A stretch of DNA of 40,560 bases, taken from NCBI RefSeq assembly GCF_012184385.1, contig NZ_VSRL01000058.1, forward strand, positions 1 to 40,560. The letters run 5' to 3'. Of this stretch, positions 10,834-38,512 are shown in pieces. The position numbers and the translations under genes were made by a program. Origin of the DNA: Lentzea indica (lineage in GTDB: Bacteria; Actinomycetota; Actinomycetes; Mycobacteriales; Pseudonocardiaceae). Under the pieces are notes generated by a model. That model saw nothing but the letters and a program-made list of their open reading frames with translations. It had not been told where the DNA came from and made no database searches. Every line of letters starts with the position of its first letter. Position 1 is the stretch's first letter.

Positions 10834-10904
10834 CGTGCAGCGATGACTTTTCGAGCGGCACAGGTTCGGCAGATTCACCCGTTCGTGGACGACCCCATTT
10901 GCCG

Positions 10905-10935
10905 TTAGTCAAAACGAAGGAGCCAGCGGCTCCTT
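10905..10935 (-). terminator. Terminator hairpin in left repeat
   Basis: AAGGAGCC-AGC-GGCTCCTT (10917-10935) is a perfect 8-bp stem. Read leftward it is followed by CGTTTTGAC, a short T-rich tail. The same hairpin is at 38299-38317 downstream of the intact tRNA-Pro. It probably terminated the tRNA transcript. Confidence 0.65.
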
Positions 10936-10999
10936 ATTCACTCCTTCATCCACCTGTTGATCATGAGAATGATGATCAAGCGGAGATCGTTTCGAACGC

Positions 11000-11026
11000 A
11001 CGAAAAAGCCCGCTGACCTGGGCTTT
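11000..11026 (-). terminator. tRNA-Pro terminator, left copy
   Basis: Leftward, AAAGCCC and GGGCTTT (11020-11026 and 11005-11011) pair around 8 nt and are followed by a T run (11003-11007), a standard intrinsic terminator. A second overlapping 10-bp pairing, AGCCCGCTGA with TCAGCGGGCT, can form over 11007-11045 and would compete with it. The same arrangement lies at 38381-38427 beside the intact tRNA. Confidence 0.7.
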
Positions 11027-11106
11027 CACGCAGAATCAGCGGGCTGATTCAGACCGTCGGGACGACAGGATTTGAACCTGCGACCCCTTGACCCCCAGGG
11101 CCGCCC

Positions 11107-36400: not shown

Positions 36401-38088
36401 ACGAGAGGCGCGCTCGGAGGGGTCAGCTCGTAGTGGCGGAAGAACGCGTGAACGGCGTCAAACTCCGCGCCAACGAACCCCTCGTGCTCCACCCGGTACA
36501 GCAGGTCGCGTGCACCAGCACCTACGCACACGCTCTCCGCAGCAGAACGGACCGTGAGAACGACTGCGATCGAGCGGTGCCTCGCGACTCTGGTGAGAAA
36601 GGACGCGAGATGCGCAGACCATACATCCTTCCCTCCGCCTTCGTTGAGGGCGTCGATCATCAGCAACGCCCGGCACTGCCGAGCAGCAGCCAGGTCGTTC
36701 AAGGCTTCGAGGAACTGGACCACGGTGCCGTTCCAGCCCAGCAACGTACGCATCTGCTCCCAGGGCTCGCCGGGCACGAACTGCTGGCCCAGCAACAACA
36801 CCGCTGGCTGGCCTCGGTCGAGCGCGGCTCGCAGCGTGTCGGCCAGCAGGTGGCTCTTGCCGCGGCCGGGCTCACCGCTGATCAACAGAGCGTTGTGCTG
36901 CCATGCTGCCGCGGTATCGGACGCAAGTGACTGCGCGGCTTCCCACACGGCGCGGGCACTCTCGTTCAACCGATCCGCGCGGCGATCGTCCAGCGTTTCC
37001 GCTTCGGCGATGAGCAGGTCGCCGATCTCCCTGCATTCCAAAGCCCACGCCGCCGGCAGCTCAGCACCGCCGCCAAATACGCGTACTTCGTGCTCCAGCG
37101 CCGCAAGCCGGTCCGCGAACGAGTGGACTTCCGGCGACGCACCTCTCGCCTTCCGCGCCTTGTTCACGAGGTTGCGAGCCGTCCGCAGCTCTTTCCGGAA
37201 CAAGCTCAGGGCGCGCGGAACACGTGCAACGCCTTCCATCACTCGGCCCAGTGGGACCTTGACGCTCAGCTCTGGGGTGTAACGCGCACCGATCTGGTGC
37301 ACGGCCTCCTCGGCGCGCTCGCGCAGCCACTCAAAGTCAAGCGTGCCGTGCCGGCGCCGAAGCGCTATGCCTTCGCCCACCAGCGCTGTGCGCCACGCCG
37401 CGACGTCATGGCCAGCCCTCAACCTCGCAGCGCGGCCGGCCAGCCCGAGAAGCGACTTCCACGCCCGCTCAGCATCATCAGCGTTCGTGCTCTCCACGAC
37501 GAGTTGCAACCGGCTGATGGCGACTTGGGCGCCATGCTGATCTGGCTCCTCAACCGGTAGTTCCCAGATCGCCGCGCACTGGCGAACGACCTGTCGCTGG
37601 TCGGCGCTCAGCGGTTCGAGCAGTCCCTCCAGGTAGGCCAGTTCAGTGGCTTCCTCACCGGTGGGAGGGCCGGCAAGGCGGAGCCGATTTCGTTCCAAGG
37701 CACGCTGCAGGATCCTCATCGGACCGTTCAAGCTGCCGGTCACGATGACCAGCCGATCCTTCTCCGGGTTCAGCTCTTCTGCCCCGGCTTGCTTCCACTG
37801 CGCGACGGCCTTCATCAGCACAGGGCCTTTTCGAAGCGTGCGTTTCGCCTGGATCTGCGCAGCCCACCCGGAAGTGAAATCGATACGCAGGTCGTCGACA
37901 GCGTCGTCTGTTTCCAGCGTAACGGCCTGAACCTGCGCGTCCACGGACGGGATGTCCAGCCCAAGCAGCGGCGCCCCCACCAGGCCATGCGCCACGGCGT
38001 ACGCCGCAACCCCACGCCGATATTCGACGCCGCTGTCGCCGGACGAACCCGCCACACGGCCCGCACCGGCGCGCGCCTGCCTAGCCAT
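33448..38088 (-). CDS. STAND NTPase with N-terminal nuclease-like domain (Avs-like sensor)
   Basis: This is a 1546-aa protein. Residues about 20-110 (EYRRGVAAYAVAHGL, DDLRIDFTSGWAAQIQAKRT) look like the Cap4/Mrr-type PD-(D/E)XK effector found at the front of defence NTPases, with QAKR in place of ExK. A P-loop STAND/NACHT-like domain follows: Walker A SGEPGRGKSHLL (Lys411), Walker B RALLMIDALNEG (Asp479) and VLTVRSA. A long helical C-terminal half (about 750-1300) contains LEIDDLYVLERVCAVVYG, as in HEAT/TPR-like sensor regions, and a beta-rich tail ends the protein. Avs-type proteins of this order recognise phage proteins, oligomerise and trigger the nuclease. ATG 38088 lacks a clear ribosome site. 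It is monocistronic, convergent with the integrase and adjacent to the tRNA-Pro repeat. Confidence 0.82.
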   Translation of the reverse strand: MARQARAGAGRVAGSSGDSGVEYRRGVAAYAVAHGLVGAPLLGLDIPSVDAQVQAVTLETDDAVDDLRIDFTSGWAAQIQAKRTLRKGPVLMKAVAQWKQAGAEELNPEKDRLVIVTGSLNGPMRILQRALERNRLRLAGPPTGEEATELAYLEGLLEPLSADQRQVVRQCAAIWELPVEEPDQHGAQVAISRLQLVVESTNADDAERAWKSLLGLAGRAARLRAGHDVAAWRTALVGEGIALRRRHGTLDFEWLRERAEEAVHQIGARYTPELSVKVPLGRVMEGVARVPRALSLFRKELRTARNLVNKARKARGASPEVHSFADRLAALEHEVRVFGGGAELPAAWALECREIGDLLIAEAETLDDRRADRLNESARAVWEAAQSLASDTAAAWQHNALLISGEPGRGKSHLLADTLRAALDRGQPAVLLLGQQFVPGEPWEQMRTLLGWNGTVVQFLEALNDLAAARQCRALLMIDALNEGGGKDVWSAHLASFLTRVARHRSIAVVLTVRSAAESVCVGAGARDLLYRVEHEGFVGAEFDAVHAFFRHYELTPPSAPLVLPEFREPLFLSIYCRAAQLRPSLLRGSPPGISTVLDAYLAEMDGPVCELADADPHEQVVRQACLRLVEKMRTAGTPHLSSAEAKEVLEGVHGSQGFSRSLLAGMLGERILADDYVSTATGTQRVIRFSYERLADHLAATTIISQARRADGSLDLDRLIGAIDTIPAGGGTIDALAICLPEQAGVELVEVMSPQGEDERVALVRRVLRSLPLRVPSKITGAAEQLLRSALLGSDRRNARLAADIAISIACRPGHRLDAEWLHRMLLSLSMPDRDATWSVAIAGERRSATPYRWLLRWLQHDDQRAIESLSPDSARAVAITAMWSFTCPDRFLRDQMTRWVVRLMSAHPHVLPMLLDRALEIDDLYVLERVCAVVYGTALRGIVPDHLRAVATVLEGKVFAGEPPAHILIRDYARGIMRLAHQHALVSEEAWLRAAGPWSSPWPGKTLPTREEFERDYPAFDGDGSHENKPLWLPLHNGLFGLGDFGVKIIGSDHPHSFPFTPAPAPWLVGAEQQGGCVEDGGDEAPSMLEQWMQDPDMPAKLRAQLQDLLDYSAGLASAGAVRREAFDTEMVCRFVFAGVVERGWTPARFREVDVHLMQNSGDSGRSSHKRERIAKKYQWQAWHEAYARLADTHALRDVPDLPSALGIDIAIDQIRDIDPTHLLTGNPEGDSDDDPDDQAVAFYAEPAAPDLTTWDTHTQWVTDPTAMLDTAKLQIIVGSDLLETPAGRALHLNAESRWLALSSTTVWNWDQFGRTPQLSHDVWADHAIVEHVLLIKLEDAKAALRTAPERYDPSRFRYEFVDGPFLGEVPDQSHYEALLRHRELGGRDDDGFGIDASAVTTTDRYVWEGGISDCSLHATVSVSFPSKPLFDILSPGGKVRDGATYAPDGTLIAFSQGAYQVDDGVDLFVRADRMHEALRVSGHALVRVVFQERRGGTDLHSHAKFAGMQTRTSVHVHEPADDAGWRLIGTAPHHDELVPPRKD

Positions 38089-38247
38089 CTGCAGAGCCTA
38101 CGACGGCCCGGACGACCTGCGGCGAACTCGAAGCCCGTGTCGTGCGCCGCCGCCAACTGACATGAACTGCGTCAGAGCCAACACACATGGTCTACGAATC
38201 AGCGCGGTTGGCGGACGACCGCGTCGGTTCACACCGATTCGGCACCG

Positions 38248-38480
38248 TTCGGCAAGTTCACCCGTTCGTGGCGACCCCATTTGGCGTTAGTCAAAACGAA
38301 GGAGCCAGCGGCTCCTTATTCACTCCTTCATCCACCTGTTGATCATGGAATTGATGATCAAGCGAAGATCGTTCCGGGCGCACGAAAAAGCCCGCTGACC
38401 TGGGCTTTCACCCAGAATCAGCGGGCTGATTCAGACCGTCGGGACGACAGGATTTGAACCTGCGACCCCTTGACCCCCAG
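38248..38480 (-). repeat. Right direct repeat (attR-like), overlapping tRNA-Pro
   Basis: This is the same-orientation partner of 10864-11098. It includes both terminator hairpins and the tRNA-Pro half from 3' end to anticodon loop, then continues into the intact 5' half of the gene. The few differences are spread along the non-tRNA part, while the tRNA part (38439-38480) is identical. That pattern suggests the two copies come from related but distinct chromosomes, or diverged where the tRNA was not under selection. Confidence 0.85.
38381..38408 (-). terminator. tRNA-Pro terminator
   Basis: Leftward, AAAGCCC (38402-38408) pairs with GGGCTTT (38387-38393), followed by a T run at 38385-38389. 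A second hairpin, AAGGAGCC/GGCTCCTT, lies further on at 38299-38317. Both are duplicated at the left repeat. Confidence 0.75.
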
Positions 38481-38512
38481 TCAAGTGCGCTACCAAACTG
38501 CGCCACGTCCCG
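38439..38512 (-). tRNA. tRNA-Pro (anticodon GGG)
   Basis: The leftward strand folds as a full cloverleaf. Acceptor CGGGACG pairs with CGTCCCG; the D-arm is GCGC-AGTTTGGTA-GCGC; the anticodon stem CTTGA/TCAAG holds loop CTGGGGG with anticodon GGG; the T-arm is GCAGG-TTCAAAT-CCTGT, followed by discriminator A. CCA is not encoded. It is the intact target gene of the island, whose 3' half is repeated at 11057-11098. Confidence 0.95.

Follow-up and report, generated by a model that had tools for sequence, protein, structure and literature searches.

A contig of 40,560 nucleotides from Lentzea indica (NZ_VSRL01000058.1, assembly GCF_012184385.1; all of it is referred to here as the window) carries a 27-kb island at a tRNA-Pro(GGG) gene, and the island is bounded by two copies of a 235-bp repeat. 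The repeat probably consists of a 43-bp core, which is the 3' half of the tRNA, joined to the integrase-side attachment arm of an integrase-only element family that stacks at tRNA-Pro(GGG) and holds exchangeable cargo in a fixed slot. We hold this interpretation with fairly good confidence; it builds on the repeat itself, on the position of the arm beside the integrase in relatives, on a decayed arm buried within the island, on stacking in relatives and on a comparison of cargo. The arm on the integrase side is called the near arm and that at the opposite end of an element the far arm; features of the window are listed in Table 1.

The two copies (10864-11098 and 38247-38480) are direct repeats that agree in 222 of 235 aligned columns (94.9%), in 179 of 191 columns of the arm portion alone and in all 43 of the tRNA portion (11056-11098 against 38438-38480). 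An earlier sequence-only reading had recognised this repeated tRNA-Pro 3' half, and its start for the right copy is corrected from 38248 to 38247. As ARAGORN predicts a single tRNA in the window, tRNA-Pro(ggg) at 38438-38512 on the minus strand, the right copy alone is whole, again in agreement with that reading. A search of the same genome with the repeat returned seven matches, namely two full copies (E 7.8e-102 for the second) and five matches of 25-34 bp. The left edge at 10864 does not mark a natural end of the similarity, being cut by a remnant of an insertion sequence (IS) of which full copies are present in the same genome (L123) and in G022, and between some relatives the near-arm similarity extends to about 510 bp. 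The arrangement is that of a tRNA island: a whole tRNA stands at one end and a 3' fragment, oriented alike, at the other, with a tyrosine integrase gene (32277-33377, PF00589) between the two tRNA copies. The contig stops at both ends of the window, and the far side of the older element to which the left copy may belong, termed element B, would lie outside it.

Relatives of the integrase (54-73% identity) are found at tRNA-Pro(GGG) with the 3' end of the integrase gene toward the core. For eight relatives (55-63% identical) the distance from integrase to core is 0.15-0.5 kb with no gene called between them by the simple codon-usage script that supplied the gene calls in relatives, and in seven of these eight the outer arm of the window (arm positions 1-134) finds a better alignment in the interval than any of 400 shuffles gave, the shuffles moving two-base blocks (z 4.2-19.3). 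The outer arm also aligns in all six relatives tested that have a long gap (z 4.5-70.9), and in G241, which lay outside the shuffle test, a BLAST match begins at arm position 11 and continues through the tRNA. Near ends of other element families, ten in all, gave z values of -1.1 to 2.8. Since the outer arm is placed in relatives after the integrase stop codon and ahead of the tRNA core, the roughly 190 bp beyond the tRNA half most likely represent the element's own integrase-side attachment arm and not DNA of a former host. The near arm adjoins the tRNA or a displaced core in differing gene settings, and its left flanks have in common the arm (up to about 510 bp), integrase or RHS genes and scattered pieces, with no common chromosomal gene among the 70 pairs listed.

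A strong hairpin is present in the first 65 nt beside the tRNA in all 50 tRNA-adjacent loci (z -3.9 or lower against mononucleotide shuffles), and its position is constant while the near-end sequences after the tRNA vary by element family; it is plausible that every element supplies a replacement terminator. CTCC and GTTCA-like repeats with a spacing of about 11 bp, read by eye, fit arm-type sites and may act as such, the GTTCA-like ones running slightly left beyond the arm at 38247-38437. Two hexamers recur in the arms, AGGTCR in the near ones (41 of 50) and AGGTCA/TGACCT in the far ones (14 of 25; background 0.10 per 160 bp), for instance at L091, L093, L106 and L113, and AGGTCA/TGACCT is present beside cores in viral contigs as well. 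As many of these arm sequences are related, no claim is made from the counts, and AGGTCA/TGACCT is possibly an arm site shared by the elements inside the terminator. In plasmids and phages, matches to the arm sequence span the tRNA only, bar one plasmid with about 100 bp of terminator plus the core. The core itself was found in 20 stretches of 19 viral contigs, where four loci continue into a tRNA and the rest into non-tRNA DNA, and the integrases of these contigs are distant (24-33% identical). At L181 (JOAA01000025.1, titled Rhodococcus rhodnii NRRL B-16535) and L176 (Saccharothrix deserti) about 60 bp of the outer arm are present with no tRNA.

The 27 kb, taken as one island in the sequence-only reading, are divided by a buried far arm. 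The similarity of 18055-18170 to the far arm at 11104-11219 (Table 1) compares with 53 at the next best non-self offset (z about 10), and the island would therefore comprise at least two elements, A1 fused to A2. Judged from the sequence, A1 occupies about 18050-38437 (DUF262, RHS, integrase and Avs2 genes) and A2 11099 to about 18050, with a gene for a helicase joined to a restriction endonuclease (REase) domain. In addition, two near arms in one orientation point to two stacked element ends. The corresponding A1/A2-type junction appears to be retained intact in G014 (inferred to be L. nigeriaca), with the gene order of the window: a DUF262 gene (C1:2875-4891, 93%) comes first, next a far arm joined through an intact core to a near arm (18396-18759), and after these a helicase gene (29644-35092, 91% identity), whose element ends in a far arm that has lost both its outer 31 bp and its core. 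In G086 a different element lies at the tRNA, and a core copy with a near arm and an integrase of the window's clade is found 24 kb further. With one integrase and two cores, the core between A1 and A2 having been lost, the locus of the window works like a decayed tandem array, and the buried arm provides a worked example of stacked islands merging into a larger composite.

Of 24 Lentzea genomes, 23 yielded the tRNA together with its conserved right flank, and G017 a degenerate copy only. After the tRNA 3' end the full near arm of the window follows in six genomes (G000, G001, G004, G014, G020 and G022), part of it in seven and other sequences in ten, and a displaced core with a near arm and no whole tRNA occurs in 13 copies in the Lentzea loci examined, besides that of the window. 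No empty tRNA-Pro(GGG) site was recognisable among the 23 loci; the sequence-only reading had expected empty sites to join 10863 directly to the tRNA, a junction at which the IS remnant now occupies 10573-10863. None of the 23 other Lentzea genomes searched has the left flank (1-10863) as one conserved block. This flank was also considered as ordinary chromosome, and a comparison of 4233-10863 with 24 genomes gave scattered matches only, including a 1.6-kb gene block at unrelated places. This block (6798-8399, a BNR-repeat gene region) is 88-90% identical at eleven places in ten other Lentzea genomes, and as these copies mostly have unshared flanks, it either moves or sits in shuffled regions. 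A conserved block of 3.4 kb lies past near-arm copies, in the same orientation and on the same contig, in G004, G015, G018 and G020, whereas in the genome of the window it is on another contig, C21, which counts in favour of stacked elements. Considered as the far side of the hotspot, the block is present in 16 of 24 genomes, mostly on unplaceable contigs, and G011, which consists of one contig, is without that part.

Several observations weigh against stacked elements with arms of their own. The arm test failed in G229, an integrase-adjacent relative with a broken integrase, where 167 of 400 shuffles matched or exceeded the alignment, and a T-run was found at just 17 of the 50 loci with a hairpin. 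An intact integrase of the window's clade was not seen at six near-arm loci (G004, G014, G020, G022, G044 and G133) in the DNA examined, neither core nor near arm remains at 18050, and no second integrase was seen in 1-10863, so that at best element B persists as a remnant. That part of the arm which holds the terminator (about 135-190) recurs beside tRNA-Pro across many genera and may therefore be old host sequence, and at the 13 displaced Lentzea copies the near arm is often outermost in the DNA examined, where a native flank would look alike. These last two points are what would be expected if the 190 bp were the chromosomal flank of tRNA-Pro acquired from another host through imprecise excision or homologous exchange, as the sequence-only reading had proposed, and the difference of about 6% between the window copies, whose nearest relatives differ by segment, is also in its favour. 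Such an origin is nevertheless unlikely, given that integrase relatives in other genera have the outer arm between the integrase stop codon and the core, that the left flanks of the near arm share no chromosomal gene among the pairs listed, and that in G014 a displaced near arm forms the right end of an element whose far arm is the same. With the arm in that position, neither imprecise excision nor host exchange is needed; what endures of the earlier proposal is a tRNA-integrated, defence-rich island whose 190 bp move with the element, and homologous exchange via the long repeat is a possible second route of spread.

It is also conceivable that the near arm of an ancient element became fixed beside tRNA-Pro in the Lentzea ancestor, the left copy then being a fossil of that arm and not a second element. 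The near-arm type at the 13 displaced copies, the lack of an integrase in 1-10863 and the ordinary genes of the left flank (e.g. for an ABC transporter and regulators) make this possible, but it appears doubtful because near ends of other families occupy at least 10 of the 23 tRNA-adjacent Lentzea loci, so that the site turns over, and because the flanks past the arm are not orthologous. A segmental duplication or gene conversion that copied one end to the other, with no site-specific recombination, could account for the middle of the arm being closer between the two window copies (95%) than to any other copy; it is however very improbable, as the copy ends at the anticodon loop, where the displaced cores of other families end too, and is followed by the far arm and not by tRNA sequence.

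Under the favoured interpretation, that of an element family stacking at tRNA-Pro(GGG), the tyrosine integrase would recombine an element with the tRNA gene around the anticodon loop, and the element would restore the tRNA 3' half and bring its own hairpin terminator as a substitute for the displaced one. Insertions by elements of this family and of others would follow one another at the same core and leave stacked ends. In the window A1 would lie next to the tRNA and A2 would follow, with the core and arm between them lost, whereas the left repeat copy would be the end of the older element B, presumably intact at one time and now cut by the IS. The cargo between integrase and near arm would be exchangeable, often as a whole anti-phage system, and may have entered by homologous recombination between the integrase genes and arms of stacked elements.

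In the set of 16 clade members whose attachment copy lies on the 3' side of the integrase, eight have 4.8-17.9 kb of cargo between integrase and arm. Dropped from this set were G022 (one integrase piece inverted at the tRNA, a second interrupted by a stop codon), G201 (fragments of an integrase next to the tRNA), G047 and G238 (ends of contigs), G017 (37%), G226 and a second G131 copy (no core within 12-13 kb; an ARAGORN call of 89 nt in L302 was discounted), and further integrase matches known from 1.5-kb flanks only. Five of the eight slots hold clear anti-phage systems, two are defence-like and one holds biosynthesis genes. The slot of the window contains a predicted Avs2 (728 bits), the product of 33448-38088 matching six Avs2 models with 727.8 bits for the best; Avs2 proteins sense a phage protein and activate a nuclease. 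The slot of G001 (inferred to be L. aerocolonigenes) holds Gabija (GajA 612, GajB 437 bits), that of G187 an Argonaute plus nuclease (pAgo_II 786 and Aga_Helical-REase 482 bits), and that of G241 a Lamassu-like system (LmuB 271 bits, LmuA and LmuC weak) followed by a cyclase (397 bits) and a SAVED-HNH type effector (426 bits) of a cyclic oligonucleotide-based anti-phage signalling system (CBASS). In G131 the slot is taken by a type I-B CRISPR-Cas system (Cas3b 650, Cas1b 339, Cas4b 278, Cas7b 186, Cas5b 86 and Cas8b 27 bits), with repeat arrays flanking the cas genes at both ends. A GajA/OLD-like protein (153 bits) lies among IS copies in G191, and a 1518-aa protein in G138 (L258:4580-9136), with HEAT and sub-threshold STAND matches and no PADLOC match, is a candidate new defence protein. 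The slot of G068 carries genes of the short-chain dehydrogenase/reductase, asparagine synthase, aromatic amino acid lyase, MFS and acyl carrier families, with no PADLOC match for the five proteins scanned.

The striking point is that different complete systems are found in the same place, although defence genes are not confined to it. Ten control proteins on the other side of the integrase, from five of the eight long-slot members, divide into five with matches to defence-type models (four methyltransferase-like, 53-104 bits, and one weak SspD, 29 bits) and five with none, a comparison that has no matched genomic background rate behind it; moreover, the helicase-REase and DUF262 genes of the window lie on the non-slot side of the integrase, as does a DUF262 protein in G053, which has no slot cargo. 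The integrase clade, which extends across several genera of an actinobacterial family, might be a dedicated defence shuttle in which whole immune systems as different as Avs2 and a full type I-B CRISPR-Cas locus, arrays included, are exchanged as cassettes in the interval bounded by the conserved integrase gene and the conserved near arm, with stacking at tRNA-Pro(GGG) supplying the homologous arms, but this we put forward tentatively, as a conjecture with the odds against it. If the slot holds up, the interval between integrase and arm would be a short, marked place in which to seek unknown actinobacterial immune systems, the 1518-aa protein of G138 being an example.

Table 1. Features of the window, ordered by position, with the evidence for each.
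Feature	Position	Strand	Evidence
IS remnant, internally deleted, rve-type transposase (type by eye), truncating the left near arm	10573..10863	+	
Second near arm, putative right end of older stacked element B, or its fossil	10864..11055		
Displaced core, copy of the tRNA 3' half	11056..11098		repeat comparison
Far attachment arm, predicted left end of A2 and of the 27-kb unit	11099..11219		same arm beside core and near-arm copies in G003 and G014
Helicase, 1731 aa, with MTES_1575 REase domain, in A2	11284..16479	-	PF18741 E 1.1e-32; PADLOC PDC-S37 213 bits, Hhe 96 bits
Buried decayed far arm, predicted left end of A1, core no longer recognisable	18055..18170		78/116 ungapped identity to 11104-11219
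DUF7669 protein	18633..19598	-	PF24706 E 2.6e-10
DUF262 / GmrSD_N protein, 595 aa	19811..21598	+	PF03235 E 2.7e-27; PADLOC PDC-M55C 98 bits
Pentapeptide-repeat protein	21956..22858	-	Pfam E 9e-8
Small open reading frame following the RHS gene, candidate immunity gene from position alone	23093..23503	-	no Pfam match
RHS-repeat protein, 2733 aa	23493..31694	-	Pfam RHS_repeat E 4.4e-69
Tyrosine integrase, 366 aa, 3' end toward tRNA	32277..33377	+	PF00589 E 2e-11; relatives at tRNA-Pro
Avs2-like STAND protein, 1546 aa, cargo between integrase and near arm	33448..38088	-	PADLOC Avs2 727.8 bits, E 7.8e-219
Near (integrase-side) attachment arm of A1, with putative hairpin terminator beside the tRNA and CTCC repeats about 11 bp apart	38247..38437		
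Whole tRNA-Pro(GGG), integration target; core 38438-38480 in common with left copy	38438..38512	-	ARAGORN; 43/43 core identity

The statement of the sequence-only reading that nearly every gene between the repeats is of a defence or conflict type applies to the helicase-REase, GmrSD_N/DUF262, RHS, pentapeptide-repeat, integrase and Avs2 genes, but is a little strong, as three open reading frames (16665-17558, 17648-17998 and 18189-18614) had no match in family searches. No replication or transfer family was found among the ten called island genes, all of which were scanned with Pfam. The G+C content of the island is 0.653 (0.646 in A1 and 0.674 in A2), against 0.679 in the left and 0.686 in the right flank.

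Phage satellites such as P4 and the phage-inducible chromosomal islands (PICI) have a fixed cargo position with exchangeable defence systems. The fixed-slot cargo of the window is alike, whereas no helper-dependent capsid or regulatory genes were recognised in it, no search having been aimed at them. In the published description of the Islander tRNA islands, tandem arrays are recognised and 125 tandems of two or more are tabulated (PMC4383910); the window shares with these islands a whole tRNA, a displaced 3' fragment, an integrase between them and a crossover that would fall in the anticodon region, but differs in a repeat that, owing to the two occurrences of one element end, runs on for about 190 bp beyond the tRNA, and in a stacked element B for which the window holds no integrase. 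Actinomycete integrative and conjugative elements (AICEs) are described as forming tandem pairs at tRNA-Lys and tRNA-Arg, with recombinase genes that typically adjoin one att site (PMC3218068). The likeness to those of the pSAM2 type lies in the actinobacterial host, the tyrosine integrase and the tRNA 3' end, whereas the island of the window has no replication or transfer gene that was found and its cargo parts the integrase from the near arm. The hotspot islands of E. coli (PMC10121019) are similar in having an integrase as the sole recognised mobility gene and variable anti-phage cargo at a fixed site, and differ in phylum and integrase and in that the defence cargo of the window sits in the slot between integrase and near arm. 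Tandem islands at tRNA genes and defence islands whose sole mobility gene is an integrase have been described before; the literature searched, little of it subscription material, contained nothing on this element family, on such Lentzea islands or on a slot for cargo between an integrase and its near arm. A long tRNA repeat that stems from a stacked element end may be mistaken for captured host DNA, and the test for an arm beside the integrase separates the two.

Elements of other types were also seen at this tRNA. One with its integrase beside the core (L093/G007, L104/G018 and L170/G049) shows 95-96% identity over 5.7-8.2 kb when Lentzea and another genus are compared, and the 95% over 8.2 kb between G007 (Lentzea) and G049 (another genus) is a sign of recent transfer. 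At L108 (G022), also at this tRNA, an RHS gene 86% identical over 1.6 kb to that of the window has a transposase and an inverted piece of an integrase gene as neighbours. Integrases of the group that are less closely related are found beside tRNA-Ala(ggc) (about 48-51%; L230, L234, L239 and L240) or tRNA-Val(cac) (37-39%; L236, L238 and L244), which suggests that the target shifts within the group.

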